Positions 4,989 to 64,000 of a DNA stretch of 64,000 nucleotides are shown piece by piece. Source of the stretch: Mytilus galloprovincialis (Eukaryota; Mollusca; Bivalvia; Mytilida; Mytilidae); NCBI RefSeq assembly GCF_965363235.1, contig NC_134846.1, positions 55,045,121 to 55,109,120 on the forward strand, written 5' to 3'. Position numbers and translations under genes: made by a program. Numbering within the stretch: the stretch's first letter is position 1; each line of letters begins with the position of its first letter. The notes under the pieces are model-generated. The model saw only the letters and a program-made list of their open reading frames with translations, was not told the DNA's origin and searched no databases.

Positions 4989-5367
4989 ATGGAATTAAAA
5001 AATAGTGTAAGTGAAATGGATAATAGCATTTACGAGGAATTATATGAAAACACTATCCACCACCAAGATGAATCTAAAACCTCGACAAGTTCTAATCTAC
5101 TAACATACGAATCTTTAACTCATCAACATGATTCTGCAGTAGTGTATGACAGCTTACAAACCAAAAAGTTTAAAACAACAAAATGGAAATGTCTACGTCA
5201 TTTTAAATCAAGGAAAATAGCAATAACAGTTTTCCTTTTTTTAAGTGTCGTCTGTTTTCTTGCATGTGTTATCATCTTTATACACACGACCAATGTAAAC
5301 AGTGAACAGACTCAGACTGTGTCTAAAGAAACAAATGGAAATAAAAATGGAGGCTATTTTCCTAATG
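4989..5367 (+). CDS. Gene 1 exon 1: tyrosine-rich N-terminal tail and first membrane segment
   Basis: Encodes residues 1-126 plus one base. Tyrosine motifs YEEL, YENT, YESL and YDSL lie before the membrane segment; YESL and YDSL are nine residues apart, close to ITAM spacing. A basic stretch precedes a roughly 24-residue hydrophobic run beginning KIAITVFLF. The donor is G|GTATGT, phase 1; the last G joins AT of exon 2 to give Asp. Confidence 0.75.
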
Positions 5368-8300
5368 GTATGTAAATCTTTGACTAAAAACTGCATACGA
5401 TGCACATATTTCTCTTACCAAACACTGTAAATATCGTAATTGTTTATTAATCAACTATTAACACGAAGATTAGGGGCAAAGTTTTAAAAGAATGTATTGG
5501 GAGCTATGATGATGAACCTTATCATTCTCTTTTCTATGAATGATCTGAAATCAAACAAAAATAGGACAATTCTTATTATTCTTTTGCACGTGTACACAAG
5601 TCATATTTATATTTATATTTATGATATATTTAGTAGTAAATACAGTAGCACGAAATGCAACTATAAAAAAGAACGCAATGAAATACCATACAAAACACAC
5701 ACAAACAATTATACAATAAACAAAATATTTTTAAAACAACAACACGCAAATTGTAAGGTAACCCAGGTGCTTCATATTAGTAATTGAGCAGTTCTTTTAA
5801 AGCTTTTAAAACAAGACAAAAGTAGAAGTGAGGGTAACCCAGGTGCTAGGAACCAGAAAGCATTTTATATATACTCTCCTGTTGAAATATATGATAAAGC
5901 GTATAAAACATTGCAAAATCTGTATCACATGCCGTATCACCCTCGACCAGTATCATCCCTCGGGCCTAAAAGCCGCCAGGCTGTATTGGTATCTCGGGAT
6001 GATACGGTATGTGATACAGATTTTGCCATGTATTATTCTCTATTTATCGATATCGGGACAGGGGACAAAAATTATATATTTAACATTGACTACTATATAT
6101 AATGTTCTTACAATACTTCCTGTGTATTTGTTTTTAATTTTTTTTAAATGGTATAAAAAATCATGACATTTAACACTAATCTTAGTTCATAAAGAAAAGT
6201 AAATTTGTTTGGGCAACACCTAGACTTTGAAGACACATTTTTGAAAGAAAAAATGAGTTTAATCCATAACCGAGTTGATCAATATATTTCTTATATACTC
6301 AAGAATGTTCACTTAAAAGCAAATTAATTTAATCTCATGCGAAAAACTACAAATTCAAAAAAAGGGCTTCATTTTTTTGGGTAAAAACATGCCCATATAT
6401 GGAAGACACATGACTTCCATTGTTGAGAAATGGGGTCAAACCGGGGTCAGCTTTCCGACTGAATAGAGGCTCTGGAGAGATTGAATCGATCACCTATATT
6501 TAAGACGCCCAATGAGCGAAAACAAAACTTTTCATTAGAACCATATTAATGACGTAAGGAACAACCTTGGTTGCAAAAGTATCGGTAGATCTTGTGAAGA
6601 AGATCTTTGAAAATCAAAAAGAATTGTACCGTTTTGGTCCATAGCAACTATATTGGACACATTCAAAAACCAAAGCATACGCCATTTGTTTTAGTAGGGT
6701 TTCAATTTAAAATATGAAATATCAAATATCAAATACGAATTTTCTAATAGCTGTTGAATAAAAACCTCCATTCGTCAAGTATGTGTTAAATTTGATCTAC
6801 CGTTGTTTATGAATGATCCTGCGTTCAGCAAATTGATAATCAGAAAAGCCAGTGACCTTGTTTGTTGACAAATTAGCAAAAATTAAAGTAAAAACATTGA
6901 AAATGGACTTTCTAGGAAATATTTATGCATAGTAATGTTGTATTGTGTTCCGTGCTTATTAAAGAGATAATTTGATTATCAAACTATGGCGTTAACGGGC
7001 GGGCGTATGAGGCCAAGTGATGGCAACGAAAGCCATGAGGATGTGGATAGGGTTTGCAGTTGTATCTATAAATTCGATAGCTTATTAGGTCAAGCATTAA
7101 ACAAACTCATGTGTCCGCGGTTTAAACTTGCATTGTTTGAGGAGAAAACAATTTCGCACACAATACATTCGTCTCCGGGACAATTATCATCCTGCACGCA
7201 CTCAACCTACTCTCCGGACAGCCAAACATATTTGAATGATCTATTAAATTTGATTTCTTGTTTATTACTAGCTTAAAGTCCCATGACAACTATTTCAATC
7301 ATAGTCAGGACGATGTTATACTTTGATAGATTAAAACAATAATATGTGAAATACATATTTGATTTAAATACATGCACATATATGTCCACAAGGAGAGTAC
7401 ATACAATATCTTACTTTAGGACATAAAATTACATCAATTTGGTCCTCAATTTAGTGAGAAAAAACATAGCATCCATTTTTTTTTAAACATCTATTTTAAA
7501 TTCTTAAATTTATATGTGTAGCATTGATTGTTCGTTCAAAGGAGTAGGTTCATCTAAAGAAAGATTGTGTACACTTTAAAAAAAAAACCACTTAAGTGTC
7601 TACTTCAGTCGATTCAATTAGTTTGTGTGAAATATTTGAACTGATTTAGTCATTTCAGACGCTCATATTCAAGCTTAAATATGAAAAATCTATCAATTAT
7701 TTCAGATATTTTTTGTCAAAAATGAAAGTGGCCGCTACCATGTTTATCCTCAACCTTTATACATGTTATGCATTATCATCAAATACAATTTACATTTAAA
7801 TATTGAAAATGAACACGAATGCGGCCACTTCCATTGAAGACGAAACCCGTATAAAATTTTACTCAAATGCTAAAATAATTTAGCATGACTTAATCTTACA
7901 AACATGTTTAGAGATCTCACAAACATGTTTAACCCCGCCGCAATTTTGCGCCTGTCCAAAGTCAGGAGCCTTTGGCCTTTGTTAGTCTTGTATTATTTTA
8001 ACTTTTAGTTTCTTGTATACAATCTGGAGTTTAGTATAGTGTTCATTATCACTGAACTGGTATATATTTGTCTAGGGGCCAGCTGAAAGACGCCTCCGGA
8101 TGCGAGAATTTCTCGTTGCATTGAAGACCTGTTGGTGACCTTCTGCTGTTGTCTGCTCTATGGTCGGGTTGTTGTCTCTTTGGCACATTCCCCATTTCCA
8201 TTCTCAATTTTATTAATGATGCTAGTACAAAAAACAATCCATATGTATGTAGCAGAAGTATTCTACTTTCCAATAAATAGCTAAAAGTTTACATTATAAC

Positions 8301-11300
8301 AATTTTGTAAAACTGATATATTTTGGGGCCAAAAAGAGTCTTACTGAACCTTCTCCTTTTAACGACATGTTTTTTTTTTACATTTTAGATTGTGAAAACA
8401 AAATGATTCTACACACGCCTAACAAATATGCATATCGACCATTTATCTTGTCAAATCATGGTTTGTTTATTTCTGATAAAGAATCGTTTTCCTTTCACGT
8501 GCAAGCATGTAATGACGTACATGTTGCCTTACTGCCTAAAGACTATGGTAACATTACTGACGAAAGTGCACTCTATGAAATTGTTATCGGAGCGTATAGA
8601 AACACAAGGTCAATTATTCGCAAAAGAAAACAAGGGCAATCAATGGTTGAACGAGAACGAATAGGATATCTCAATTGCACAGAAGTAAGGCAGTTTAATA
8701 TAGATTGGTCAAATGGAAATATTTCTGTAAGATACATTATGAAGAACAGTACTGTTGAAACTATCATGGCATGGTTGGACCCAGCACCTCTGATGATTAT
8801 TGATGCGGCAATAACTACAGGTTTTGGTGCAACAGGATCATGGACCTTCTGTGCAAACGGTAAACAAATAAGATTTTAAAGGTTTGCAGAAAAGTGCAGT
8901 GATCAATACTTAGTCTACATGACGCTACATGATTTATGATACAAGGAAAAAATAGCCAAAGAAACCGAAACATAAAATTTAGTTTCTGTCAGTAAAACTG
9001 AGAACATGTGATATGATTACCAATTATACAACTGTTTGTTCACGAGTTTAAAACCAGACGAGTAGCCAGTCATTCGGTACTTGCATGAAAATACGGATAT
9101 TATTTTGTTTAAATTTGTTTTTATAAAATTCCGGAATCAGATTAAGGACTGTATGCCTGATTCCATGTCAGGGTTTGGTTTTACTTTTGGTTCTTTGTAG
9201 TTTTATATTGATCCGTTTATCAACATTTGCAAATAGGTTTGGACCTCTAACATCATTGCAGAGACATTAGATATTGTTGAAATACGCATACGGTGCAATA
9301 AAATTGGTACCTTTAATATAATGACTACATATCCAAGTGTTCAAACCCAAATATAAGAACACTGTACGTAAAGCACTACATGTTTTTGTTGTCCACACGT
9401 ATTCACAGTTAAAAATATCACAGGTAGTCAATGGAAGAGCACGATAAACTCCATTTTAAAGTTGTCAGAAAACGTAATCAACAGAAAAGTACATGAAATG
9501 TATTTTGATGGTCCTCCTATCGAGATAAAAAGGAAAAATGCTGAGTTCCTATAATTAAACTTGTTAATCCTAACACATGTTAGAGTCGCCAATAAAATCG
9601 TTATGACGAGTTACTTTAAACGTTATAACAAGTAAGCTTATTCGTTATAACAAGTTAATGCTATTCAACAAAACAGTCGTTTCAATTAGTAACCGAGGGG
9701 GGGGGGGACACAAGTACTAACTCGTTTCGTTTGACTCAAACACAAAATGTTCTTTTACATTCAACCAATTATTCCTAGAATATTTTCTATATGGATGGTT
9801 ATTAAGAGAGAACCGATAACGAAGAAACTGTATTATAAATCTAAAAATTCAAAATGTACCGTAAGGAGAGTACATACAATATCTTACTTTAGAACATAAA
9901 TTGACCTCAATTTGGTCCTCAATTTAGTGTCATCTTCGGGAGAGAAAAAACATAACATCCATTTAAAGTAATATAAAACGAGTGACCGGTGAAACATAAG
10001 GTTTATTCAATTCTTAAACCAATGCATGTATGTATCATAAACTTAGTCTTCTGTGCACGATTTCATAATTTTTTTACGCAAAAATATCGTATAATCGTCA
10101 TTTTTTCCCCTTTCTATCTGTTATGAAGTGAAAATATGACAGCTCATTAATTGTCGCATTCTGAAGCAGAAGTTTTCCGATTGTCACCTTATAGTAAACA
10201 ATCAACAAAAAAGCATTGATATTGACCACGTATGACGTAACTCAAACAAAATCTTTTACTACATGTTTATATATTTGTGTTTAATTTTACTTGCAGATTT
10301 TAAGAATAGTACTGACAAAGATGGATTAATAGATGGTAAGTCGTTATACGTATGGTAACAATTGTTTGTATATGCATTTTCTAAATCACTACTAGCATCT
10401 GAAATACAGAGTAAGTACATACTCAACGTTAGGAAAAAAAATACCATATGATATACAAACCTTTCTGAAGAATCAATTAATTCTACCGAATCATATGTTA
10501 TTTTCTTTGCAAGATGTTGTGTTTTTGTTAACTTTTTGTCATATGCATCTCAATGATACCCCTTTCTACAAGTTGCCTGAAACAGAACAGGCAATTTGTT
10601 AAATTTTGATTAAAAATTTCAATTATTTTACAAAAGGACCAAGTATTTTTAGTCATTATATAATGCCTGTCAAGGTAAGGCAGAACTGTACCTAGTGCTT
10701 TTTTATTGGAGGTTTATAAGTATTCTGCCACGTCCAGACGTCATGGACATTAAATATACAAAAAACAGTAAATATAGAAATTGAACATGTTACACATTTT
10801 ACTACATGTTAACATATTTACGTATAGTTTTACTTGCAGATTTTAACAAAAGTGCTGACAGAGACGGATCAATAGATGGTAAGATAATAATACAACGAAT
10901 AAACGGTACACTAGAAATTACACTTTATGATCATTGGAATTGGAAATTCTATAATTTAATAATGAGATAAAGGTATCGTAGGGTAAATGTGTTAGTAGTG
11001 ACATCTGAAAGTTTGCCGAGTAACTTTTTATATACATGTAGTAACCGGTCACCTGACTAGATTTCCTCTTTGATATGCCACTATACCGTATCCATTTCAT
11101 TTTTCATCTAACTATGTGTATAATCATAAATTGCTGCAAACATTAATTATACAGGTATGTTTGTTAATGTCAATCAAGTGAAACACGTTAGCTTCGTGAG
11201 ACAACATTTAATGAGTGTGTTGACCGTTATGGAATAACCGTTTCACAAATGATATCGGATATGTTCCTTACGTCGTAATTACAATCCCCTTCCCTTCCAT

Positions 11301-14300
11301 GAATGTGACCTACCGACTGTTTATCGGACTTGTTATAACATAAGCAACACGACGGGTGCCACATGTGGAGCAGGATCTGCTTACCCTTCCGGGGCACCTG
11401 AGATCATCCCTAGTTTTTGATGGTTATTCTCTAGTTTTCTATGTTGTGTCATGTGTTCTATTGTTTGTTTGTCTTTTTCATCTTTAGCCCGGCGTTATCT
11501 GTTTTTTTTTCTATTTATGAGTTTGGCTGTCCCTCTGGTATCTTTCGTCCCTCTTTTAATGACAAATTGAAATCCGTGAAATTGTCTCAATATACACAAG
11601 ATATAACATTGGATAACTTCCCTTTAACATTTCATAGTATTTATCATAAACACCGGGCGGTTTCTGGCTTATGTGCTGCTTCAGAATGTAATAAGATTTG
11701 ATAAAAAGAAGATTTTTAGGTGCAACATGTGAGTGTTTTGGCTTATTATTGTAGAAATTTCATGTCAATACATTCAGCAATTCAAAATGTCGGCTTCCTT
11801 AGTTACATACAAGGAGATAGAGAATTTTACGTTAACTGTCATCCAATTAGAACCATTGATACAAAATAATTGCATTAGAATTAAGAGATAACTGTATTGA
11901 ATTTGAACCACATCTTCTTTTTTATATATACCAAACAAAATGTACATAATTCTTTCTTTTGAAAAGCTTTAAACTAGTAATCAGTTTTTGAATAGTATAC
12001 CATTTCAAAGAATGTAGAAAGCTTACATATACTTCTAAGGAGATGTGGTATGTTTTCTAATGAAACATCTGTTCACCAAAAGATCAAGCAGAATAAATGT
12101 AAGCAAGCAAAGGCCACCAACGACCTTCACCAATGCCAAAACACCATACCTGATAGTCGGCTTTAAAAGGTCACATATTCTAACAACGCATGAAATAATC
12201 ATACCGTCCTTACAATTATATTTTGTTTGCACAATGTAAAAAATACTGCACCGTTACAAATAGTAATAAAATACACGATCTTAAGCATTGAACAAAAGGA
12301 ATACAAAGGAAACATTTTAGTCTTCCTTCAAATTTAAAAAGATGTTTTTCCATAAAAATATCAAACTTGACATTAGTCGTAGAGTAACAAAAACCCAGCA
12401 ATATAATTAAAGCCATCTCTGTGTATGGTAGGGATATATGCTTTGATAATGGGTCTTCCAAACAAGAGCCTTTTAATAGCTTGAATCGCTCATCGTTAAT
12501 TTCTTTTGATTGATCTGCATCAGTGATTACTTTGCTGTAATTGTAAAAATACTCCATTTTGTAACGTGCTTTTATACGTTTCTATCTATCATAATTTCTG
12601 TAAAGAAATCGGTTAAAATCATCTTCCAATGGCGTTAACTCATTTAATGAATCCCTGGATGATTTTGGTCATGTCGACTTTTTTGTAGATCTTACTTGGC
12701 TAAAAATGTATCCCTATGTTCTGTATTTAGCAAAGGCCATCACGTTTGTTGAATCACAGGAATATAGAAAAAAACATGCATACTATATATAGCTAGATAC
12801 CATAAAATTAGAAACTTTCACCCCAATTTATGTTGAAATTGGATGAGTAGTTTCAGAGAAGATTTTTGAAAAAGTTTATGCCAACGACGACGGCCGCAAA
12901 GTAATGGCGATAACTCACAATTAGATGCGACTGTCATACAGGTGAGAGGTTAAGCTTGGAATGCTATAAAATCAGGTTTAATCCGCCATTTTCTTCAGAT
13001 GAAGAAAATGGCCTGTATCAAGTCATGAATGTGACAGTTGTTATCCGTTCGTTTGGTGTGTATGAACTTTAAAATTTTGCAACTTAATTAGGGACTTACT
13101 GTTTTGAATTTTCTTCCGAGTTCGATATTTTATGTTATTTTACTTTATACATGGCTCGGGTGAGCTAAAAAGAGGAGGTTCATTATTACAGAGTACGTTT
13201 ACATAGTAAAAGTCTTTAATAATATCATAATATATATTTGATAATCCAGAAATTATTATTGGTGTCATCGGAGGAGCTGCTTTGATTTGTATTTTAGTCT
13301 CGTGTGAATACAGATTACGGTTTGTTTTTGTATTTGTTCAAACAAATAATTTATAATGTATAAGTTTATCTTTTTTTAATGATTATTATGACAATTATGG
13401 TTGTATCATGAGAATCGCTTTTTGATTGCACAACCAATTCAGTTTAGGAAATAAATGTTGGTTGAACTATGATAAATGCCACAATATAACATTGGTTATC
13501 CCCAAGCTTTAACCAGACATTCAACATTTCACATTATTCATCCACGAGTTATGGTACGTACAACGACAACATTTCATATTGAAATTAGTCCTTCTCTTTA
13601 CATTATTTCAACATATTTGTAGGACAATATCGTGCTTCACATATAGCATTCGTTATGATAAAAAAAAGTTCTCTTACTATTATAGAATGTATGGCTTTTT
13701 CTATGCTAGTTTGGCTCTAATATCTAAAAGAGGGACGAAAGATACCAGAGTGAGAGTCAAACTCATAAATCGAAAATAATGACAACGCCATGGCTAAAAA
13801 TGAAAAGGACAAACAGACAAACAATAGTAGACATGACACAACATAGAAAACTAAAGAAGAAACAACACGAACCCCACCAAAAACTAGGGGTGATCTCAGG
13901 TGCTCCGGGAGGGTAAGCAGATCCTGCTCAACATGTGGCACACGTTGTGTTGCTTATGAGATAACAAATCCGGTAAATAGTCTAATTCGGTAGGTCACAT
14001 TCATGAAAGAGACGGGGATAACGACGTAAGGTACATATCCGATATCATTTGTGAAACGGTAACGGTCAACCAAGTCGTGATGGCGTCCGTAAAATGTACG
14101 AAGTGATGATTTCAACTTCACCATTTGGAACTCTTGATTTAATAGTTTCCCTGTGAGCAACAACCCTCTATCAAGAAAAGCATGATAGGAAATGCAAGCA
14201 CGGGCATATCTTATCAATTAGGAGATATATACACCGTATGCAGGTGCTGCTGGAATGTTGCTACTTAGAAATGGAAAGTTCACACCTGAAAAGCTGAAAT

Positions 14301-15765
14301 CATCTCTTTTGTCGTGAAGTTTTGTTTTCAATCGACTCTCTTTGTCAATTTCTAGATGTTAGTTAAGATATGAGGCCGACTTACCTGTATCTGTTGTATC
14401 CTTTAATTCTAGTTCAATGGGATAGATGCTTTCAACATAGTCACCAAATTTTGAATTATTTAGTGAAAGAACATCATTTATATAGCGGAAAGTAGAGTTA
14501 TAGAAGATATTGCTAACTTCTTATCTTTCTTCCTAAGAAGTACCTGTATGAAGTCAGCCTCATAGTAATAAAGAGACAAGTCGGCAAGAAGAGGTGCACA
14601 ATTCGTTCCCATTGGAATGCCAATAGTCTGTTGAAAAAATCCTAACTCTTGAGACAACTTGAGAATTGCAATTGAAATGAAAGCGCTGACAAAAAACTAC
14701 AGTGAATTTATGTAAAATCGAATTTTTAATGCATGAAAAGATTTTAAAAAAGTTGCAGAACTTTATCGAATTTTGCATGTTTCATGAAAGATCTAGATCG
14801 AGCTTTTGCTCTCAGCTTTTTTACAATTTTAAGATGGCGGAAGACATTCGATATATCTAGTGTAACGCTATTTTCAGTACATTTGTTGTTGTAGACTCTA
14901 TCAACGTCTTGTACTAATTGGATTCTTATTGCTTGCTTAACCTGTAGTGCCAATTATTTAATGCATATTTAGCACGAGAACAAATCAATTCATTTTTGTA
15001 TGATCGGACAATCATCATGAAAGGCGAGAAATTTAGACTGGCAATGAAAAATGAGTTATGTTAAATATGATATAACGTTTGTCTTGCAAAGTGGTTGCTT
15101 CGGTTCTTCAACATGCGGAGAGCGTGGTACTTCAGGATCAACCGAATTTAAACGTCCCCTTCTGACCGGACATGACTGTCAATTTATGCATTCAGCTAAG
15201 TTCAACGGTCGCCCTACTTTATAAAGGGTTTTACTTGGGGAAGGAGAGTAATTCAGGGATTACCATATTTCTATACACATGCTCTTACAGAATCTGTTTC
15301 TACATAAATTTGATAAGAAATATTTGCATAGTACATACTCGCTTTCTTTCAGTTTATTATAAATATTAGAACAACTATTATTCCATTAACTACATGTATA
15401 TTGTTATTATATACGGGTATTTTTTTAGATTACATTTGGAAGCTAGTATGGAAAATGGAGAAAAGCAAACAAATTCTTTAAGGACTGTGTGGACCAAAAA
15501 ATCTTCATCAAAAAGGCCTTCCAGTGAAGGACTGGCAAGCTACACAGACTTGCAATCACAAACGGTCTTTTGTCCATATTCCATACTAAATACTAGTACT
15601 CTACAAACAAGCAGAAACATACAGAATGATAATTCTAAAAACAGTAATACATCCAAAAGGACGTCAACTTACAAAGATTACGAAGATATTCATGATACAC
15701 ATGTCAAGGAAGGTTATGAAAACACTAATAAAATGCAATGTACAGAATCACTTCCTAAGTATTAA
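4989..15765 (+). CDS. Gene 1: two-pass FAMeT-domain receptor-like protein with ITAM tail (6 exons)
   Basis: Exons 4989-5367, 8389-8859, 10297-10335, 10840-10878, 13250-13319 and 15429-15765 total 1335 nt and read through as 444 residues plus stop. Every junction is GT-AG; phases are 1,1,1,1,2. Order: cytoplasmic N-terminus (1-75), membrane segment about 76-99, FAMeT domain (127-283), two 13-residue DxDGxID modules (284-309), second membrane segment (about 311-331), tail (333-444) with an ITAM. KWKCLRHFKSRK before the first segment predicts N-in, so the FAMeT domain is outside and both tails are inside. The domain family is named for farnesoic acid O-methyltransferase but in many animal proteins acts as a binding module; enzymatic activity is not implied. 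A receptor role is inference. The start is the first ATG of the open exon; no cDNA evidence is available. Four N-glycosylation sequons (NIT, NCT, NIS, NST) sit in the ectodomain. Confidence 0.8.
7718..7835. mobile_element. Small MITE with GTGGCCGC inverted ends, copy A
   Basis: AATGAAAGTGGCCGCTACC at the left, GAACACGAATGCGGCCACTT at the right; reversed, the right end gives AAGTGGCCGCATTCGTGTTC. A second copy lies at 45033-45150. Confidence 0.5.
7911..8214 (+). mobile_element. R2 retroelement 3' end, 5'-truncated copy
   Basis: GAGATCTCACAAACATGTTT through GACCTGTTGGTGACCTTC to CATTTCCATTCTCAATTTTA, matching the 3' part of the element at 34834-35707 and sharing its exact end. Confidence 0.7.
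8389..8859 (+). CDS. Gene 1 exon 2: FAMeT (Methyltransf_FA-type) ectodomain
   Basis: 157 residues in one phase 1-1 exon after a long T-rich acceptor. Family hallmarks are visible: FHVQACNDVHVALLP, then YEIVIGAYRNTRSIIRK (the typical YEIVIGG..N..S.IR core), then FNIDW, AWLDPAPL and a closing TGFGATGSWTF. The length fits the domain, so the whole domain is on this exon. Donor ACG|GTAAAC. Confidence 0.85.
8860..10296 (+). other. Gene 1 intron 2: no gene seen
   Basis: AT-rich. A homopolymer G run sits near 9697-9708. Around 9860-9965 a stretch (GGAGAGTACATACAATATC ... TTTGGTCCTCAATTTAGTG) repeats sequence found at about 7390-7470 in intron 1. Confidence 0.4.
10297..10335 (+). CDS. Gene 1 exon 3: 13-residue mini-exon, copy A
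   Basis: 39-nt exon between TTACTTGCAG and GTAAGT, phase 1-1, encoding DFKNSTDKDGLID. It keeps the frame. The DKDGLID core resembles part of a calcium-binding loop (EF-hand or thrombospondin type 3), but it is too short to call. Confidence 0.7.
10840..10878 (+). CDS. Gene 1 exon 4: 13-residue mini-exon, copy B
   Basis: 39-nt exon encoding DFNKSADRDGSID, same phase and nearly the same flanks as copy A (ACTACATGTT before, TTACTTGCAG acceptor, GGTAAG donor), 543 bp downstream. Clearly a tandem exon duplication; either or both copies could be included without breaking the frame. Confidence 0.7.
11220..11565 (+). mobile_element. R3 (Penelope-like) 3' end, truncated copy
   Basis: From CGTTTCACAAATGATATCGG to CCCTCTGGTATCTTTCGTCC; matches, on the opposite strand, the 3' part of the element at 13728-14950. 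An old fragment. Confidence 0.6.
12035..12560 (-). other. Unrecognised open frames in gene 1 intron 4
   Basis: Overlapping minus-strand frames of 113 and 65 codons. No conserved motif or splice partner seen; may be a decayed repeat. Confidence 0.25.
12965..13170 (+). repeat. R5 dispersed repeat copy
   Basis: Family marked by CCATTTTCTTC..., AAGTCATGAATGTGACAGTT and a TTCCGAGTTCG end. It lies just upstream of the gene 1 membrane exon. Other copies are listed separately. Confidence 0.55.
13250..13319 (+). CDS. Gene 1 exon 5: juxtamembrane/second transmembrane exon
   Basis: Encodes E plus IIIGVIGGAALICILVSC and a short basic end. Phase 1 in, phase 2 out (ACG|GTTTGT). DNA and protein are homologous to gene 3 exon 7 (shared IGVIGG.ALICIL core), unlike the membrane exons of genes 2 and 4. 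Confidence 0.8.
13728..14952 (-). mobile_element. Penelope-like retroelement fragment (R3) in gene 1 last intron
   Basis: Minus-strand reading shows the reverse-transcriptase segment GIPMGTNCAPLLADL followed by YYEADFIQ, then DRGLLLTGKLLNQ, LKSSLRTFYGRHHDLVDRY, typical of Penelope-like elements. Its 3' end is CCCTCTGGTATCTTTCGTCC-like (at 13728 on the + strand, reversed). Old and broken. Absent from the matching intron of gene 3, whose sequence resumes at AATTATTT(A/C)ATGCATATT (14953 here). Confidence 0.7.
15429..15765 (+). CDS. Gene 1 exon 6: cytoplasmic tail with ITAM
   Basis: Residues 333-444. YTDL at 15541 and YSIL ending 15588 are separated by eight residues, exactly matching ITAM spacing (YxxL/I-x6-8-YxxL/I). 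Further tyrosines: YKDYEDI and YENT. Serine/lysine rich, with no enzymatic domain. Stop TAA is followed by AATAAA at 15812. Homologous to the gene 3 tail exon. Confidence 0.8.
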
Positions 15766-18901: not shown

Positions 18902-18971
18902 ATGGACTGTTTTTGGTGTCAGATTTGGATCAGTTTTATACTTACAAAATCTGTATATATGGAAACAAACC
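18902..18971 (+). CDS. Gene 2 exon 1: signal peptide
   Basis: Encodes 23 residues beginning MDCFWCQIWISFIL, donor C|GTAAGT, phase 1; the last C plus TG of exon 2 gives Leu. Gene 4 has a matching 70-nt exon at 55427-55496, and flanking DNA is conserved, which supports both calls. Confidence 0.75.
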
Positions 18972-30761: not shown

Positions 30762-31008
30762 TATGCTGAACTTGATCCAAAAGAAACTGGATTTTACAAA
30801 AGTTATTCTTTAGGCAATGAACTGGAGAAAGACTTTCCCGGTGATGATCTCAACCACAAGTATCACAGTACATTTGATACATATGCCATACTAAATCCAG
30901 AAGAAACTGGGTACCATGGAAACGAAGAAGAGATATGCAAACGCGCATGCAGTAAAACAACAAAAATATATCCCCCAAATTTATCTTTTCACAACAACAA
31001 AATATAGG
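30264..31008 (+). repeat. Coding minisatellite, 123-bp (41-codon) units, partly beyond the gene 2 stop
   Basis: Units start at 30264, 30387, 30510, 30633, 30756 and 30876 (the fifth is 120 bp). The gene 2 stop TAA (30759-30761) lies at the second codon of unit 5, where other units have GCA, CCA or ACA. Units 5 and 6 stay open in the same frame (YAELDPKETGFY, YAILNPEETGY) until a TAG near 31006, so they look like recently lost coding sequence now in the 3' UTR. Confidence 0.8.
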
Positions 31009-32072: not shown

Positions 32073-33050
32073 ACGCCCGTCTTTTAGACGGGACTTATTA
32101 TAATATACTGTTGTCCGTCCGTCTGTCCGTCCGTCCGTCTGTCCGTCCGTCTGTCCGTCCGTCTGTCCGTCCGTCTGTCCGTCCGTACGTCCGTCTGTCC
32201 GTCTGTCCGTCCGTCCGTCCGTCGTCCACACTTCGGACAATAACTCAAAAACACTTTCACCAATTTCCATGAAACACAACTGAATTGTTTATATCTATTG
32301 ACGAAGCCTTCCTTTCGTCTTTTTTAAATTTCAGATTTTAAGTTTTGGATTTATTCATAAAAAAAGGGGGGATTTTCAACACTTCGGACAATAACTCAAA
32401 AAGGCTTTCACCAATGTCAATGAAACTTTGGTGAATTGTTTATATCTATTGATGAAAGCTCCCTTTCAATTTTTATAAATTTCAGATTTAAAGTTTTGTA
32501 TTTATGGGGCTTTATTCATAAAAAAGGGGGGTTTTCAACACTTCGGACAATAACTCAAAAAGGCTTTCACCAATGTCCATGAAACTTTGGTGAATTGTTT
32601 ATACGTATTGATGTAAGCTCCATTTCAATTTTTATAAATTTCAGATTCTAAGTTTTGGATTTATGGGGCTTTATTCATAAAAAAAAAGGGGGGATTTTCA
32701 ACACAGTGGACAATAACTCAAAAAGGCTTTCACCAATGTCCATGAAACTTTGGTGAATTGTTTATATCTATTGATGTAAGCTCCCTTTCAATTTTTATTA
32801 ATTTCAGATTTTACATTTCCGTGTTATGAATTTTTATGCTTAAAAAAGGGGGATTCCATTTTTATAAATTTTAGATTTTACGTTTTCTTAAGTAATGAAT
32901 TTTTATACTTAAAAAAGGGGGATTTTATGAAATTTTGGTGAATATATTAATGTAACATCCCTTTTGATTTGTATATATATTTCTAGTTGATCATATAAAT
33001 TCATTTAAAGCATAAAAGACAAGTTAAAAGAGCAACGGGCGTATCATGCG
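32073..33050 (+). mobile_element. R6 element with (CCGT)n head and about 160-bp tandem units
   Basis: Ends ATACGCCCGT and ACGGGCGTAT are inverted. After TTATAATATACTGTTGTCCG comes a CCGT/CTGT microsatellite (32115-32223), then four to five units beginning near 32225, 32380, 32538 and 32700 (CACTTCGGACAATAACTC ... GTGAATTGTTTATA ... CATAAAAAAGGGGGG). Open frames over the microsatellite on both strands are artefacts. Confidence 0.65.
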
Positions 33051-37979: not shown

Positions 37980-38052
37980 ATGGTAAAGATGATTTTGCAA
38001 GTGTACTACCTCTTTGTTTTTGCAAGAGAAGTATTTTCTATTGAGCTAAATA
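37980..38052 (+). CDS. Gene 3 exon 1: signal peptide
   Basis: MVKMILQVYYLFVFAREVFS then IELN; donor A|GTAAGT, phase 1. A+GT of exon 2 gives Ser. 73 nt, against 70 nt in genes 2 and 4. Confidence 0.65.
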
Positions 38053-53372: not shown

Positions 53373-53395
53373 CCTTTGAAGGGTACAGGATATGA

Positions 53396-53401
53396 AATAA
53401 A
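53396..53401 (+). promoter_or_regulatory. Gene 3 polyadenylation signal AATAAA
   Basis: Canonical hexamer 24 nt after the stop. Its flank is homologous to the end of gene 1. Confidence 0.5.
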
Positions 53402-55426: not shown

Positions 55427-55496
55427 ATGGACTGTGTTTGGTTTCATATTTGGATCGGTTTTATACTGATAAAATTTGTATACTTGGATAGAAACC
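55427..55496 (+). CDS. Gene 4 exon 1: signal peptide
   Basis: MDCVWFHIWIGFILIKFVYL plus DRN; donor C|GTAAGT. 70 nt, aligned base by base with gene 2 exon 1. Confidence 0.75.
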
Positions 55497-58400
55497 GTAA
55501 GTTTAAATTATTTTGAATTTTTCTTCCTTTTTCTTAGTATAAATGTTTCGAAAATTACGTTTCCATAAAAACCCTACAAAACATGTACATGTATGAGTGT
55601 TAGTCGAGTTATAAATTGATATTGGACATCGAATAGAGAAGACTACATTCAATCGAACTATGTTTATTTTTGCAATACATTACGTCACATTGGACGTCGA
55701 TTTATAGAGTATCAAAATATTGGACGTCGATTTGAGAATGTGACGTCAGATTTTGACGTCGAATTTAGGAACGGCCGTCGATTTCAGGTATGGACGTCGA
55801 TTAGAGGCCGGACGTTGATCTGAGTCTAACATATATATGACACTTTTGTCAACACAAATCATAAAAAGCTATCAAAATAATGAAACTTGGTTTAATTTAT
55901 TTAGATAATTGTTTTTTATTAGAATGCTTTTCGGTTGTGTGTACATGTGGTTTGATTAAATACTAGTATATAGTTGTTGTTCCTTATAATAAAAAGTATA
56001 AAATATACTCATCACAGATACCAGGATATTATAATGGGGAATAGTTGTAGTGTATTATATAAAACTCCGCTTAACAAGGAGAGTTTTTTTTAAATTTGAA
56101 TAACAAAATTCACATATTTTATAACTTATGAATTTTAAATGCAAGAAATTACACCACCAAGTTTACTTAGATACGTAATAACATGTTATATGTGGTTTAC
56201 CTCAGTTTTAGTTTATTATCCAGATTTGTTTTCTCTCATACGATTTATGACTTTCGAACAGCGGTATACTACTGTTGCCTTTATATACGACGTCAAATTG
56301 TTAGCTAATGCATTAATCAAACATACATCTACAACAAACATTAATAAGTATTTAGCTTTTTTGGCGTACGGCGGTCTCAGAAATTTAGCGTGCATGGTCA
56401 CTTTATCCGAATTTTTTTGAAAAACAAATAGAAATAGTGTAGTTGTAGGCAAACTGCGGTTTGCTTGCAAACATAACTTTAAAGTAGTCAGATCGGCTGG
56501 TTAGTGCCCAGTGTCTAATCTAGTTTAAAGCTACTACAGAAACACTATATTATGCACAATCCGCTCTCCTGGTTCCAAAGCATGTGATTGATAAGCATCT
56601 GAACTGTGATTCAGATAAGTAGCCAAAGATATAGTAGAAAGCCAGAGAGAGCCGATCTGCGAAACAATTAGCATAAGCCTTTGTCTGAGCTTTCTAGCCA
56701 GAAAATATTGGCAAGACTTATGCTAAAGTTAGGATGTAAGTGATCACTGAATACCCCGTAAATTTGTGATTTGAGTGAAAACTCGAAATGACCCACATGA
56801 TCTAACAGTATGAAAACATTAGCATTCAACTGAGACAACAATTATAACAATGAGAAAAAAAAATGATAATAATAATATATAGATATCTATATATAAAAAT
56901 ACACTAGATAAACCATATGACATGCTAATAATGTGTAACAGTAAAATCTATCGGTGGTGGAGGGGAGGAAGGTGGTTAACAAAAAGAATGGCGATGCCTT
57001 CAACGTAAACAAAGAAAATTTATAAATAGTTTTCACGCGCTAAAAATAATTGAATGTAGATAATGCAATGAGGAACGGTAAGGGGCAAATCGTCTTTTGT
57101 ATAAACCTGAATTATATACATAATTCTCATTTTAGAAAAAAGTTTTATCTGCAATCGATTTATTGAGCTTTTAGAGGGTTTTTTTAATTAATGTTCATAG
57201 GATTTTTAATAAATAAAAGTCAACAACTACTAGTTTAATTGACATTAGAAATGAGTTTAAGGTAGATAGGGTGTCTTCCTCAATCTTGGATTTAAAAATA
57301 CCAGAAAACAAGGTCTAAATCTTTAATAGAATGTGCAAATTTTTAGACTAGTAGGTAATTCATGTGTAAGAACTTCCACTTCGATATAGAAAATGACATG
57401 TTTTATCATATTTATGGTTGTATTTTACAAAAAACTGAAAAAATTTGTTTAATCAATTTTTTTCCAACTTTGCAACATAAGGGGAGGACCCTCAAATACA
57501 AGGGCAGATAATTCAGATTAAGGTACTTTTACTATAGAATGTGTTAGGAATTTACCTATTTTATAATGTAGCAAGAAAACGGGTCCGGTGACCCCATTGT
57601 TTCTTTTTCTTAACTGAAAGCATACTATTAAAGCCATCTTCTCATATGTTATCTCAAAATTCTATGGTGTAGATTACGCTTTGTTGCAGAAAATTGAGTT
57701 TTCCATGCATAATCTATACAAAATTTGTCAATTTTGAACACCGTGTAGCGTGAAAATAAGCCCGATGACCCATTCTTTTTATTAGTTTTTTCAAAAAAGC
57801 ATGATATAGACTACATTTTGGCAAATTATTAAAAAATTCGATGGATTATAATTTAGACACCCCATCTACCTTAATTTAAATGTATTTGTTGGTTTAAACC
57901 TATCTTGTCACCTTGTAGTGACAGCAATTCTATGTGAACGACAAACAGTGTCATTAACATGTGATGAAGGAACTAGGATTCATATAAATGAGGTACATTT
58001 TGGACGAAAGGAAGACGTCTTAACTCTCGACAATACAACCCTGACTAGAGATGAAAATAAAACTAGTAGAATTGTTGCATTATTATGCAATCAACACAAC
58101 ACCTGTCACCTTAATAACAGTCTTAACAATTTTACTGGTTTTCTGCCAACGATACCAAGAAAAATAAGTTTCACGTATAGATGTGGTGAGTGTTGACAAT
58201 TTTGAATACAAATTTTAATCTGTTTAAAAGGGAAAGTTGAATTTTGGTTTTTATAGGACTATAATTCGTCAAAATGAATAAACAGTGGAATGATTCAAAC
58301 TAATAACACAAAATTAAGCAGGTCAACATACCGTATACCTTAAACTTCTTTGATGACAATTTCAATTACATATTTGAAATAATGGGTGTTGTTTTTTTTT

Positions 58401-61400
58401 CGTTTATTAAAAGAATTTTGTCTGGTTTTATATCACAATGATAAGATAATTTGTGATTCAATTGACCCTAGATATAAAACCACGTTTAGTCTACCATTTT
58501 TGACATAGGACAATGTCTGCACTAAGTAAGGAATATGACAATTGTTATCATTCGTTTGAGGTGTTTGAGCTTTTGGTTTTGCCATTTGATTACGGACTTT
58601 CCGTTTTCAGTAACCTTTGAGTTTTCATTTGTTATTTTAATTTTTAATTCTCCAAAATAAAATCAAAAACTTTAAAACACATAAAGATACCTTTATGTCA
58701 ACATACAATCTTCAAAGACATACAATGTGTACATACCAGTTTGTTTACGAACTGATTAAAATCGTTTTCAGGATAATGATAATTAAACATTAATTCGTAT
58801 CTGTTAGAACATATGTGTAACCACAACTATGTAATAATGTGTATTAAAAAAATATTTCATTCCTTATGCAAAATAAAATGTCATGTGTTACCATCAACAT
58901 CATGACTCTGCAGTAGTCTTCGACATTTTTATGTATTGTACTCAATATTATAACTGTTCATTATATTTGAAAAAAAATAAATACATTTCAGAATTTGAAT
59001 ATCGTGGTTGTTTCACAGACGAGGAGGAATATGGTCTGCATAGTCGTGGATTTTTCTTAGCCGAAAACATGTCTGCAAAAATTTGCTATATTATGTGTAA
59101 CACAGGACACGTCATTCATAATTTCTTTGCTACAGAGGTATCGTTATTTATGTTAATGTATTACTAATAATTTTTGATACCTTAGTTTTTGTATCCATAT
59201 CATTTGCCATCCGCTTAATTTCATTAGTTCCGAGTGACGTTCACGAAACACGTCTATCTGGAATTATCTACATCAAGTACCCTCGAGATCAAGTAAATTA
59301 AGCTAGATACAAAACAGGTGTACAATTAAAAACTAAAATGACCTTAACCGGTAATTGACGTCAAACGAGGGATATAAGTTTGTCATTTTGTGTAATGTTT
59401 AAGCAATTTACCAAAAATAAATCTACAGTTCAAACAAAGACCTTGAAAGGACCGAACTTCAGTTTTGTTTGAAGAGGTCTGACACCGCCAAATATAACAT
59501 TTTATTTCTTTTATCGACTTATTATTTACTAGAGCACACATTTCAAAATGAGACAAATAGTATCAATACAGTGTGCTGCCGTCATATTTAGAGATATTAT
59601 CTTAATACAAAATCTAGATAAGTATGCATAAACGTTTATCGTGCATATTGGACTGTTTGAACTTTGCATATCTGTAACTTAAATGTTATTTATAGGTAAC
59701 GGCCGTGAGAAAATATTGGGAGTAGTTTTTTTTGCAAATCACTTTCATCTTTTTTCAGTATTTCCCTTTGTAGAAAAATGTAAAATCACAAAAAAAGAAA
59801 CGCCATCTGCATGTTTATTTATGTTGATCTTAAAGAGTAAAATAAAACTTTTTCTGTACATTGTCTCTTCAATATCTTGTATTTGGTTTGTAAATTTATG
59901 AATCATTGTCATTTTGGTTATTTTCTTTTAGTACCTTTTCTTGCATCGGATTCGGACTACTTTTAAACTGAGTTTTTTATTTTCAATTCTATTATTTCAA
60001 AATATGGAACAGATAAAGCCGCGAGGACCGAGGTAAACAAATACATCAAACAAACAAAATTGAGTAGAAAAGATACTGTATTATATGTTGTTGGTTGTTT
60101 ATTTTGGGAAAGGGATTAAAATGTCAGATTCGTTTCAACTGTTGTAGAATGGCGATCAATGTTTTTGTGGTAGTACCATCGGTCTGAGAAAGCTAGAGAA
60201 AGGGAAACAGAAAGAAAACAAATGTGATACTCCATGCGTGTCAAACGAAAATGAAATGTGTGGATCCATAAACAAAGCGTCAGTTTACGTGTTTGAAACA
60301 GGTGTTTTTTTTTCTATAATATGAAAATAAAGACATGTTTTATGATTGCCAATGAGACAAATATCTACCAAAGTTGAAATGAAGTGGATATAAGCTGGTT
60401 ATATATGACGTTGAAAGTAAAATATGCAAAAATACTGAAATACAATTTTCGTATCGTTAAAGGTCTCTAATTGAACAACTTATCATAATAGGAAATTTAT
60501 CATGGGATACTAGTAAATTCTAGTCTTCTTTGTAATATTCGTTAAAAGTGTACTACATGGTTTAGAAGAAGTTGAGATAGCATAAAAGTACAATGCTTTT
60601 AACTTTAAGGTAACATTTTATAACACTTTACAAAATAAATAGTATTCATTAATATCTTTTATAGATTGGATAGGACTTCAATATTCACCTCTTAGGGGAA
60701 AAGTAATGATACATTACGATTTTTAAATTTGTCTGTTCAAAACGTTACTTTATATTTCATGCGTCCAAAGTGCTTTTCTATGTTTACCTTCATGAGGATC
60801 GCTCAAACCTACATGACCTGTTCCAAATAATTATGACGTCTTAAGGGTTATTTATTCTGCATAATGAAAATCGAATGTACTAGTTGGGTCCAAATTTGAT
60901 ATTTTATATTCTCGATTTCCAACCGTTAAGGAAGATTTAATGCCAAAATAAGGTCTGAAAGTTCCTTCCAAAACTCTATTTCAAAATCCACTTGGAAAAC
61001 ATTGCTTCAGCGTTATGACGTCGTAAGAATGCATCACAGAAAAAAAAATTAAAATAGCCTTTCAAGACGTCATAAATATTTTGATAAGTATTACCTTAAA
61101 GGACTTACAATTATCAAAGATGTCATGGAATATCAGTAAGTTTAATTAAGTCAATTTCATACATGTACCATCACTCTGTAATATCGCAAGATGCATTCTC
61201 TTTTTAGATAAACAACAAATTGATTCAGCATATACAACGCAAATAAATTTGCATAGTTGCCACTACGGTTCAGGAATGAAAGACATCTACGTCAAATCAC
61301 TCGAGAGATCCGAATATTGTGATGATCTGGCTGATGCTACCCTGTCATATACTCAACATTGCAATGGAGAATTTTACTGTTTTAATTCGTCAAAAGAGTT

Positions 61401-62948
61401 CCGTAATATTACAGAGGATTTCCGTTCATTAAGAAAGTATATGAAGATTTCTTATTCTTGCTTAGGTGAGTTTTAGTGTGTAGGAGTCGAACTGAATAAA
61501 ACTCTCTCGTCTACATAAAAAGTAGTCACTTAATTCAAAACATACCCACGGGTTTAGTGCATTTATATTTCCTTTTCTCTATGATACCATCCGCTTACAT
61601 ACTTGAAAAAAGGGGCAATGGGTATAATCTATTTAAAAACAAACAAGTGATAACACTTTGACGATTCAATTCGAATTAGAGATTCACTGTTCTTTACGAT
61701 AAATGACGCCGACAATGAAGTTTACTGGATACTAGTATTTATTTAATTGTGTTTCAATTTTTTATTTTTAAATCCATTTGTTCTTTGTTACCTATTTTGT
61801 ATACATTTCATGGCTGCGAATGAGAATGACTATACACATTTTGTTAAACCTTAAAAAAAAAAGTAAAATCACAAAAATACCGAACTCCATGGAAAATGCA
61901 CAACGGAAAGTCCCTAAGCATAAAGCAAAATCAAAAGCTCAAACACATCAAACGAATGGATAACAACTGTCATATTCCTGACTTTGTACTTGTTTACTTA
62001 GAAACTGGTGAACTAAACCTGGTTTCATAGCTAACTTAACCTTGTATGACAGTTGCATAAAGCATTTTATACAAGACCTATGAATCATTCTTCCATTTAT
62101 TTTTGTCCAGGAGATCCCAATGCCTCTGTAGGATCAGTACACTCAATAAATGCAAGTACGTATTCAAATACAAACCAAATGTCAAGTAATGTATTTATAA
62201 AGATTTAACTTTTTCAAAGTTGTTTGGAAATATAATCAGTTATGCGTAATCAACTAGTTCAAAACATATGCATTCACTTCAAAATTTGGTTAATAATTAT
62301 CAAAGTTGACATTGACGTATGGTTAAATTCTTACATTTCATTTGTGTAGTTAATATTACTTTAAATAAAAATATCGTATTTTTTTTAGTATAATGGGTCA
62401 GAATATACTCCGATTTTTTGCAAACGATAAGGCGAGAAATACGGATAATGTATAAATACGGAACCTGATCCAATTTATTTTTTGTATTAAATCTGCTTTT
62501 CTTATTTCTATCATTCTCATTTCAGAAAATCTTTTTGTATAATTTTGTTTTAGTACACGAACTCTCAGTTCATTTATAGATATTTCTACAATTCAAACTC
62601 TGCTGATTGGATTGATCATTGTAAAGATTGGAATAAATGTTTTCCACACACAAAGCTTTTTGTTCCTTTGCTAAAAGGTTTATCATTAATAATAAACCTT
62701 GATGGGGTATAATTTCAAACTTTAAAGAAAGAAACTAAGCTTTATGACTTGTCTTAAGCTTAGATTCGTATGTTTACTGTCATCGATATAGAATAGTTGT
62801 CTTAATGAAAATGTATGGTGTCTGTAAATCGTTTATCTTACAGACTTAGAAAGAAGTGATATATTTTTTCAGATATTGTTGGTGGAGTGCTCGGAGCTAT
62901 TATCCTTACTGTTTGCATTGTATTTCTGACCTTATGTCTGGTTAAAAG
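55427..62948 (+). CDS. Gene 4 (partial): type I SUEL-WSC-SUEL lectin receptor, tail beyond window
   Basis: Exons 55427-55496, 57919-58185, 58992-59137, 60148-60301, 61208-61465, 62111-62155 and 62873-62948, all GT-AG, phases 1,1,0,1,1,1,2; 338 complete residues so far. Order: signal peptide, SUEL (24-112), WSC (113-212), full second SUEL-like domain (213-298), short stalk, membrane segment. It is the closest relative of gene 2 at every exon, and exons 1, 3 and 4 are the same length. The phase 2 end requires a tail exon; the intron to the window edge is homologous to gene 2 intron 7, so a tyrosine-repeat tail probably follows. Likely a surface glycan receptor, by inference from the domains. 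Confidence 0.8.
55620..55830 (+). promoter_or_regulatory. Cluster of GACGTC palindromes in gene 4 intron 1
   Basis: Degenerate repeats of TTGGACGTCGATTT. GACGTC occurs five times exactly and several times with one change in about 200 bp, and includes one perfect TGACGTCA (CRE/ATF type). It begins about 120 bp after the signal-peptide exon. Regulatory role is a guess; it may simply be a minisatellite. Confidence 0.45.
56150..56295 (+). repeat. R8 dispersed repeat copy
   Basis: TTATTATCCAGATTTGTTTT ... GAACAGCGGTATACTACTGT. The open frame at 56139-56420 lies over it. Confidence 0.45.
57250..57875 (+). repeat. Intron-1 block shared by genes 3 and 4, copy B
   Basis: Counterpart of 39195-39790, ending about 45 bp before the SUEL exon of gene 4. 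Lacks the 26-bp minisatellite. Confidence 0.65.
57919..58185 (+). CDS. Gene 4 exon 2: first SUEL/galactose-lectin domain
   Basis: TAILCERQTVSLTC, GTRIHINEVHFGR, LLCNQHNTCHL and ISFTYRC; 267 nt, phase 1-1. Acceptor CTTGTAG|TGACAG is shared with gene 2. Confidence 0.88.
58490..58645 (+). repeat. R5 dispersed repeat copy
   Basis: TAAGGAATATGACAATTGTT ... TTTGCCATTTGATTACGGAC, in gene 4 intron 2. Confidence 0.6.
58992..59137 (+). CDS. Gene 4 exon 3: WSC domain, N-terminal half
   Basis: EFEYRGCFTDEEEYG, NMSAKICYIMCNT, NFFATE; 146 nt, phase 1 in, 0 out. Confidence 0.88.
59138..60147 (+). other. Gene 4 intron 3: nothing recognised
   Basis: About 1 kb AT-rich. The matching gene 2 intron is nearly 3 kb, mainly because of inserted elements there. 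Confidence 0.4.
60148..60301 (+). CDS. Gene 4 exon 4: WSC domain, C-terminal half
   Basis: DQCFCGS, CDTPCVSNENEMCGS and ASVYVFETG; 154 nt, strongly conserved with gene 2 exon 4. Confidence 0.88.
61208..61465 (+). CDS. Gene 4 exon 5: second SUEL-like domain, full length
   Basis: 86 residues. LHSCHYGSGMKDIYVKSL, SEYC, then HCNGEFYCFNSS (the C..C pair missing from gene 2) and ISYSCLG. 258 nt against 210 in gene 2. Confidence 0.82.
61857..62062 (-). repeat. R5 dispersed repeat copy
   Basis: AGCAAAATCAAAAGCTCAAA ... AACAACTGTCATATTCCTGA, just before gene 4 exon 6. The open frame at 61778-61963 is part of it. Confidence 0.6.
62111..62155 (+). CDS. Gene 4 exon 6: short stalk exon
   Basis: DPNASVGSVHSINA, 45 nt, phase 1-1, donor GCAA|GTACGT. 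Single copy of the unit that is doubled in gene 2 exon 6. Confidence 0.7.
62873..62948 (+). CDS. Gene 4 exon 7: transmembrane exon
   Basis: IVGGVLGAIILTVCIVFLTL then CLVK; phase 1 in, 2 out (AAAG|GTGAGA). Last exon of this gene inside the window. Confidence 0.8.
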
Positions 62949-64000
62949 GTGAGATTGTTGTTCTATTTACAGTAAAATTATAATAGCAATACAAACTAAA
63001 ACTAGAGATTGAACTGATAAAACGATCTCCACCTTTCAAAAACTGGAAAAGTTGTAACATACCGGTATTTGCTATGTTTTATAATTGATGTATAATCCTT
63101 TTATAAATACTCTTCGGTTGACTATTACTTTTATGAGACGATTGCATATGCACTTATATGGTATCGGTTAATTATCACAACAATGTCTTTAAACTATTGT
63201 TACCAAAATAATTGAAAAAAATAAAACATCATATAACAATATTCTCAAAGTCTTTTATGATAAAAAAAAAAAAAGGGAGGTTTGGAATATGAAAATGAAA
63301 CGACACACAAAATAAGAGTGTTCATTTACCCATCTTGTAACAAATCCCTGTCCCTCCACATTTATATCAGTAGCTTTATGAAGAAGGTTGTTTTGATGAC
63401 GAAACGGATATTCATCAATCGATATATAGATATGTGATTTCGCTATGACCGACGAGTAAGTGAGTTACAGTAGATATCAATGTGATGCAAATATGTCAAC
63501 ATCAATAATGTTATATACTTTATAGAATTCGTGCCTCCGATTTCATTTTTATAAGAGAAACACAAAAATCCAACCTTTGGTAAAAACGCAGAAATTTTAG
63601 GTGATATAGGACTTAGACTCAAGGGAATCGCAGAAGATCATTTAACTGCAATATGCAAATGTATAAGAAACTGATTTTATAAAATTGAGAATGGAAATGC
63701 ATGTATCAAGAAAGAATAAATAACTTTCCCTGAAAAATATTACCGAAATACTTCTCGTATATGTTGGGTTATCATTGTAACAGTAAAAACTGTAAAAATA
63801 GTTGAAAAAGGTTTAACTCATCTGATGAATATAATTAGCAATACTTCCAACAAAAACTCAGAGTGGACGTGGACGGGTAAATGTACATTAACAAAACAAT
63901 AGGACAATACGTACAGTTCTGAGAGGATTCGCAAACTAATGGAATAAAATCATGCATCTAAGACTAGAACATTAGTTTCATGATTACATACATATTGCTT
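62949..64000 (+). other. Gene 4 intron 7 (partial), homologous to gene 2 intron 7
   Basis: TTGCATATGCACTTAT...CGGTTAATT, GACGAGTAAGTGAGTTA and AAGATCATTTAACTGCAAT parallel 29118-29500 in gene 2. From about 63677 foreign repeat DNA enters: an R2 tip (63677-63697) and an R1 fragment (63805-63975, minus). Confidence 0.6.

Follow-up and report, generated by a model that had tools for sequence, protein, structure and literature searches.

The 64-kb stretch of the Mytilus galloprovincialis genome analysed here (the window, C9:55045121-55109120, from an assembly of 1.385 Gb in 331 contigs) appears to belong to a larger tandem array of genes for membrane receptors, in which varied ectodomains are combined with chromosome-linked tails of the immunoreceptor tyrosine-based activation motif (ITAM) type; we put the probability of this reading at about 0.6. 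It draws on gene structures joined in silico, on paralogy, on the conservation of tyrosine motifs and on the restriction of the tails to one chromosome, C9, in this assembly. More tentatively, with a chance somewhat short of even, we propose a C9 receptor complex of several dozen tail exons over about 50 Mb. It would be defined by its tail (strict ITAM, LDPxETG, near-invariant tyrosines) and not by its ectodomain, with WSC, SUEL-like, SRCR and perhaps FAMeT modules exchanged among members, and would resemble the vertebrate leukocyte receptor complex (LRC) and natural killer complex (NKC) while having an independent origin. Its role is probably in recognition of non-self or damage.

Flanking sequence (60 kb on the upstream side, 100 kb on the downstream side) was added to the window, and the whole region was compared with itself. 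Pieces were first brought out by a listing of open reading frames (ORFs) and by Pfam scans, and exons were rebuilt from paralogue conservation and splice phase. Pfam matches were judged by gathering scores (SUEL PF02140, 31.4; WSC PF01822, 27.8; FAMeT PF12248, 24.2; SRCR, 26.1 bits). Coordinates are in window numbering unless C9 or C3 is given.

Modular receptor genes and their tails

An earlier note on this sequence had proposed four consecutive plus-strand genes built from common exon modules. The modules and the tandem arrangement on one strand were borne out: genes C and E (Table 1) are each open through seven phase-matched exons with GT-AG borders. Gene C runs from 18902 to 30761 without an internal stop (610 amino acids (aa)), and gene E from 55427 to 66078 (653 aa), its last exon lying beyond the window. 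Gene F, just downstream of the window (70022 to 81704), has eight open exons (526 aa). In each gene a hydrophobic start is followed by a SUEL-like exon, a WSC domain split over two exons, a second SUEL-like exon, a stalk exon in D and F, a transmembrane (TM) exon and a tail exon. Three points differ from the earlier description: D is broken, E leaves the window, and A and C are separated by an additional gene, B, which is a relic or partial.

The products of C and E align over 608 aa with 67% identity, which makes the two genes paralogues, and the self-comparison identified D and F as paralogues of a second type. The gene order C-D-E-F, with flank blocks that match within each type, suggests that a pair was duplicated (C-D / E-F). 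The ratio of nonsynonymous to synonymous substitution rates (dN/dS), obtained on short exons by a simple counting method without significance testing, was 0.45 for C versus E over 608 codons (dS 0.43, dN 0.195), indicating purifying selection on these genes; its parts gave 0.32 for the first SUEL-like domain (SUEL1), 0.19 for the second, 0.48 for the tail, and 0.84 and 0.88 for the WSC exons. For D versus F the two WSC exons gave 0.43 and 0.61, and the second SUEL-like exon 0.65.

When its two exons were joined, the WSC domain predicted by the earlier note was found in all four spliced genes (46.2 bits in C, 47.5 in E, 52.2 in F and 44.0 in D). The first WSC exon alone stayed below the cut-off (20.9 bits in C, 14.5 in E), a shortfall that disappeared on joining. 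The prediction of SUEL domains held in part. SUEL1 scored 23.0 bits in C, 29.3 in E and 20.9 in U (a group of exons outside the window, described below), against the required 31.4, and F gave no match, but a profile of these four SUEL1 sequences matched eight genuine SUELs of the same genome with 93% probability; SUEL1 thus appears to be a real but divergent SUEL. None of the window SUELs is among the 100 PF02140 matches listed from the genome scan, and SUEL1 of C, used as a genome query, returned C and E as its sole matches. The second SUEL-like exon is unconfirmed: it scored 14.8 bits in E, had no Pfam SUEL match in C, D or F, and reached a 10.6% profile probability against the same eight SUELs, so that its identity is only suggestive. 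Its structure prediction (from a three-row alignment; mean predicted local distance difference test score (pLDDT) 35.3) was too poor and was not used.

Among the exons and models scanned, WSC, SUEL, FAMeT and SRCR were the only Pfam domains above or near cut-off, and no immunoglobulin (Ig) or C-type lectin ectodomain was found by Pfam. Against sequences in the PDB the ectodomain of E gave weak matches only, the best in the WSC part (0.003), with a latrophilin-like match for SUEL1 (0.068). The modules themselves occur widely: C9 holds 20 of the 100 PF02140 matches listed (150 of 158 candidates scored) and 6 of the 150 FAMeT matches listed (150 of 190 scored), both C9 tallies being counted by eye, and the SRCR matches listed are spread across many contigs (150 of 827 scored).

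The tails within the cluster are predicted to be of the phosphotyrosine type, as the earlier note had it. Yxx[LIVM] motifs in A, B, C, D and E exceed composition shuffles, which reached the observed counts in about 3% of cases or fewer, and the LDPxxTG counts in the tails of C and E were reached by 0 of 2000 shuffles; the F tail contains no Yxx[LIVM]. Residues of these motifs are kept between paralogues more often than other positions, in B/D (11/12 versus 35/84, Fisher 0.001) as well as in C/E (20/24 versus 180/281, Fisher 0.04). The claim of an ITAM in every gene had to be given up: within the cluster the pair YxxL/I-x6-8-YxxL/I occurs in B and D only, with x8 spacing in both, and A has a pair at x9 only. 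Mixing of ectodomains and tails, also suggested before, agrees with the models: D and F have ectodomains in common and differ in their tails, the C/E tail motif recurs on a C9 tail exon 22 Mb away that lies near a WSC domain, and the F-type and U-type tails belong to a family of dozens of tail exons.

Genome searches with the tails returned matches almost exclusively on C9: 6/6 for C, 21/21 for the tail at C9:32.70 Mb (L041), 16/16 for U, 23/23 for F and 60 of 61 for a further C9 tail, L046. Because each query, any exact duplicates and the separate pieces of a single tail are all counted, there are fewer loci than matches. Family membership by match connects F (4.0e-9) and U (2.1e-9) with L046, and C (6.5e-6) and E (1.4e-4) with L041; B and D join the family through the ITAM alone. 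Outside the cluster the C tail matched a single pair of identical loci, one at C9:32.70 Mb and the other at 32.745 Mb. The tail at 32.70 Mb has four YxxLDPxxTGFDR repeats, and a WSC domain (48.1 bits, two exons joined) lies about 4 kb upstream on the same strand. The two loci (C9:32702198, L041, and C9:32745074, L042) are 42,876 bases apart and identical over 3,387 bases, and other tail pairs share this offset; they may have arisen by recent duplication, or the assembly may contain both haplotypes, and we counted them once.

The exons U (C9:55004145-55011506, minus strand, about -41.0 to -33.6 kb of the window; L010, L011) run antiparallel to the array. In unspliced order they comprise a SUEL-like exon, a second Cys-rich exon with no Pfam match, an SRCR domain (36.8 bits against a cut-off of 26.1), a TM stretch and a tyrosine-rich tail. 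A tail 80% identical to that of U lies at C9:54983163.

We compared 24 tails: 16 fetched as matches to three queries (the L041, U and F tails) and not by motif, together with L041, U, the N-terminal tail of A, and B, C, D, E and F. Eighteen were aligned for modules, and 11 of these, hand-picked, for the C-terminal part. Most of the 18 carry, in order, DYTGxQ(N/D)IALP, sometimes an ITAM, NYxVLDPxETGFNR, YELAxP, YAxSxEGVYD, NIYNHAVDxVYDS and DTYDHFFGQKTEDDYDIS. In the C-terminal alignment ten columns are at least 90% conserved, and they consist of five Y, four D and one H. The strict ITAM, YxxL/I-x8-YxxL/I, is found in 9 of the 24 tails, whereas 1000 shuffles gave 0.134 tails on average and never more than 2; it is found in 7/22 once B and D, known beforehand, are left out; Yxx[LI] pairs are absent at x3 to x7, and one occurs at x9. 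After paralogue pairs are merged, we estimate that the nine ITAM tails represent about six lineages, which would still be well above chance. Searched against Pfam, the modules of 11 members gave one weak match each to two families (best 0.007, DUF7249), and the tail profile had no match among PDB sequences.

Proposed mechanism and competing explanations

In the mechanism that we propose, extracellular modules on symmetric exons (SUEL-like, WSC and FAMeT, with SRCR in U) would be spliced on to one exon for the TM segment and one for the tail. What the members share would be the tail, whose three elements are a strict ITAM, motifs of the form YxVLDPxETGF and, at the C-terminus, an array of conserved tyrosines. 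Members would retain different subsets of these: the ITAM in B and D, multiplied LDP motifs in C and E, the C-terminal array in F, and N-terminal motifs resembling the immunoreceptor tyrosine-based inhibition motif (ITIM) in A. Ligand binding would cluster the receptor, and Src-type kinases would phosphorylate the tail tyrosines. Members with an ITAM would then attract a Syk- or Shark-like kinase with tandem SH2 domains, leading to phagocytosis or activation, and the LDP and C-terminal arrays and the ITIM-like tail would attract other SH2 proteins, acting as adaptors or inhibitors. If ectodomains are exchanged onto one conserved tail, recognition and signalling output would therefore diversify separately. 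From the sequence alone we infer the splicing in vivo, phosphorylation, partners, ligands, cell type and immune role that this scheme implies. The invertebrate ITAM receptor Draper is described as being phosphorylated by Src42A and recruiting Shark in flies (PMC5138034), and Syk/Zap70 homologues are reported from invertebrates having CARD-CC/Bcl10, with molluscs among the holders of Bcl10 (PMC5978004).

Several observations weigh against a linked family of ITAM-type receptors. The tails of C, E and F have no ITAM pair, and the x8 pair is missing from 15 of the 24 tails. For each fetched tail we took whichever open frame at the locus was richest in tyrosine, and the 24 tails are not independent, because they include the close paralogue pairs B/D, L050/L051, L055/L056 and U/L060. 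Tyrosine columns as a whole are conserved no better than other residues (12/23 in C/E and 5/7 in B/D, not significant). No sequence match links the B and D tails to the family on C9 (D as query returned D and B only), one L046-tail match lies on C11 (2.6e-4), and the 32.70-Mb locus and U are read as separate exons. D is broken in this assembly, its SUEL1 exon being 13 nt shorter than that of F, which breaks the frame, and its tail frame requires a weak acceptor; for B no ectodomain was found. Neither ITAM gene in the window is therefore a clean, open receptor, and the order SUEL-WSC-SUEL-TM-ITAM singled out by the earlier note, although present literally in D, is found in the window in this broken gene only. 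Since gene presence-absence variation is documented in mussels (PMC7653742), the broken state of D is a possible allele.

The predicted lectin activity is unsupported. The motifs YGR and DPC, which we take to be the sugar-binding motifs of SUEL, are in none of the four SUEL1 domains examined (C, E, F and U; E has FGR) and both are in all eight reference SUELs; 'lectin' is thus an inference from ancestry, because the sugar-binding residues are not kept. YxxPhi motifs, moreover, are also a signal for endocytosis.

The genes could encode endocytic scavenger or uptake receptors, in which YxxPhi would serve as an AP-2 sorting signal and ligands would be cleared without ITAM-type signalling. The numerous single YxxPhi motifs in the tails of C, E and A fit such a function, as does the conserved YDHF, which also matches YxxPhi, and SRCR and SUEL modules are found in scavenger-type proteins. 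We nevertheless consider it unlikely, given the exact x8 spacing in nine tails, the conserved tyrosines that have no hydrophobic residue at +3 (VYDS, DDYDIS) and the 41-aa repetition of YxVLDPxETGF, which is more than sorting signals need. A role in allorecognition or in gamete or cell-cell recognition, akin to that of Hydractinia Alr, in place of anti-microbial recognition would suit a tandem, chromosome-restricted family with varied ectodomains and ITAM tails, and an inactivated D could fit presence-absence polymorphism; the modules, however, are of carbohydrate or scavenger type and not of the immunoglobulin superfamily (IgSF), and mussels are not colonial, which makes this idea improbable. 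That the array is largely decaying, with receptor remnants of little present function, is very improbable: the D frameshift, the truncated C tail, the missing B ectodomain, the shortened second SUEL of C and the D versus F dN/dS of 0.43 to 0.65 per exon agree with decay, but the reading frame stays open through seven exons in C, seven in E and eight in F, and C versus E has a dN/dS of 0.45.

Genes A and B and neighbouring features

The first coding exon of gene A comprises 126 codons and joins in phase to the FAMeT exon. Its N-terminal tail has three ITIM-like motifs ([SIVL]xYxx[LIV]), a number reached in 0 of 2000 shuffles. The charge distribution, assessed by eye under the positive-inside rule, predicts a type II protein with this tail in the cytoplasm. 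In the genome search the exon found no relative elsewhere, the other rows matching the FAMeT part or its approach, and its tail did not match any member of the tail family on C9.

The FAMeT domain named in the earlier note was recovered at 84.6 bits, against a cut-off of 24.2 (one of one). Unless its exon is spliced at the donor at 8860, it reads through to the stop at 8879; a donor stands at the same domain position in the two other FAMeT exons compared, and the phase of the donor at 8860 agrees with the TM exon of gene B. A and B may thus be one gene, spliced from the FAMeT donor to the B TM exon, or two, with a type II FAMeT protein ending at 8879. At least 150 FAMeT matches were found in the genome (150 of 190 candidates scored, with stops in some of the matches), which makes the domain as such commonplace here, and it is not specific to immunity, since Methyltransf_FA is named in a paper on the abalone shell matrix (PMC6003135). 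The exon had no match among PDB sequences (the query began with E instead of D), and its single-sequence structure prediction (mean pLDDT 38.6) was too poor and was not used.

For gene B, upstream of C, the exons that could be found are two: one for the TM segment and one for a tail resembling that of D. A candidate signal exon for B at 10263-10335 was rejected, as it resembles a nearby repeat. On the minus strand, ORFs at 13954-14217 and 14478-14696 resemble, by eye, fragments of reverse transcriptase; Pfam gave nothing for 14478-14696.

In gene C the tail is cut by an in-frame TAA that E does not have. Repeats are still readable after this stop, as far as 31007, so that the C tail is a truncated one or a polymorphic one. 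Its second SUEL-like exon has 16 codons fewer than that of E and has lost two Cys. The stalk exons of D and F share a GC-AG donor (CAG|GCAAGT) kept between the paralogues, at 50229 and at L016 (79549, window numbering). Between C and D, at 32088-32855, a CCGTCTGTC-type minisatellite is followed by a tandem repeat of 151-163 bases. Away from C9, interleaved SUEL, FAMeT and WSC-like matches at C3:78.20-78.56 Mb are a possible second modular cluster.

Table 1. Exons and related features of genes A to E, in window numbering
Feature	Position	Strand	Basis or remark
Gene A first coding exon: N-tail with SIYEEL, LTYESL, VVYDSL, basic stretch, TM, stalk	4989..5367	+	
FAMeT (Methyltransf_FA) exon, phase 1-1	8389..8859	+	PF12248 84.6 bits
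Gene B TM exon	13250..13319	+	homologous to D TM exon
Gene B tail exon, ITAM YTDLQSQTVFCPYSIL at 15541-15588	15447..15765	+	D-like tail
Gene C exon 1, hydrophobic start	18902..18971	+	conserved with E
Gene C SUEL-like domain 1	21401..21664	+	Pfam below cut-off and profile comparison
Gene C WSC exon 1	22205..22350	+	Pfam after joining
Gene C WSC exon 2	25287..25440	+	Pfam after joining
Gene C second SUEL-like exon	26038..26247	+	paralogue comparison with E
Gene C TM exon	27330..27396	+	paralogue conservation and splice phase
Gene C tail exon, 41-aa repeats with Y-x-[IV]-L-D-P-K-E-T-G-F-Y-R	29840..30761	+	TAA at 30759-30761
Open reading past C stop, two extra YxxL(D/N)PxETG copies	30762..31007	+	untranslated as gene stands
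Gene D exon 1, hydrophobic start	37989..38052	+	conserved with F
Gene D SUEL-like exon 1, frame broken	40081..40346	+	ends read by eye
Gene D WSC exon 1	42608..42753	+	Pfam after joining; ends read by eye
Gene D WSC exon 2	46657..46804	+	Pfam after joining
Gene D second SUEL-like exon	48840..49088	+	without Pfam SUEL match
Gene D stalk exon, GC-AG donor	50179..50229	+	conserved in F
Gene D TM exon	51579..51648	+	homologous to B TM exon
Gene D tail, ITAM YTDLQLQTGIRPYAIL at 53130-53177	53048..53372	+	start uncertain (weak acceptor)
Gene E exon 1, hydrophobic start	55427..55496	+	conserved with C
Gene E SUEL-like domain 1	57919..58185	+	Pfam below cut-off and profile comparison
Gene E WSC exon 1	58992..59137	+	Pfam after joining
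Gene E WSC exon 2	60148..60301	+	Pfam after joining
Gene E second SUEL-like exon	61208..61465	+	weak Pfam score
Gene E TM exon	62873..62948	+	paralogue conservation and splice phase
Gene E tail exon, outside window	65088-66078	+	spliced model

Relation to known receptor systems

Much of the described immune recognition in bivalves is soluble (C1q, lectins), and to our knowledge the link from recognition to signalling in hemocytes is poorly known. If our reading is true, the array would be an invertebrate counterpart of the immune-receptor gene clusters of vertebrates. With one tail family near-confined to C9 and ectodomain modules spread genome-wide, it would offer a case of how paired activating and inhibitory complexes arise. 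The linked family would also put named receptors at the head of the ITAM/Syk-CARD-Bcl10 route, which has been proposed to operate in invertebrates, molluscs among them (PMC5978004). In mostly open-access literature, which makes this weak evidence, we found no paper combining SUEL lectin and WSC with bivalves, or SUEL, WSC and SRCR, and a search on farnesoic acid O-methyl, mussel, receptor and immune returned no such receptors by title.

Among known systems, the vertebrate LRC and NKC receptors (LILR/KIR/CHIR and C-type lectin-like) are similarly tandem, chromosome-localised families with activating and inhibitory members. The mussel ectodomains, in contrast, are SUEL-like, WSC, FAMeT and SRCR and not Ig or C-type lectin, the ITAM lies in the receptor's own tail, and LDPxETG and C-terminal tyrosine modules are added. 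The Hydractinia Alr complex is likewise a clustered invertebrate receptor family with ITAM/ITIM-like tails, but its ectodomains are IgSF-like and its role is in allorecognition. Draper/CED-1/MEGF10 receptors differ from the mussel array in having an EGF-type ectodomain and no known chromosome-wide family. They are alike in that an invertebrate ITAM receptor signals through Src-type and Syk-family kinases (PMC5138034), as the mussel receptors are predicted to do. For the vertebrate families, location of the chicken CHIR genes on microchromosome 31 has been described (PMC3601082). Bivalve SUEL/C1q proteins and rhamnose-binding SUEL lectins share the SUEL module with the array, and the C1q family shares its tandem duplication (PMC6835236); the former are named there as secreted (sSUEL/C1q), whereas the mussel SUELs are divergent and below the Pfam cut-off, in genes with a TM exon. 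Receptor complexes of the ITAM/ITIM type are already known, and what appears to be new here is the set of ectodomains and the design of the tail.

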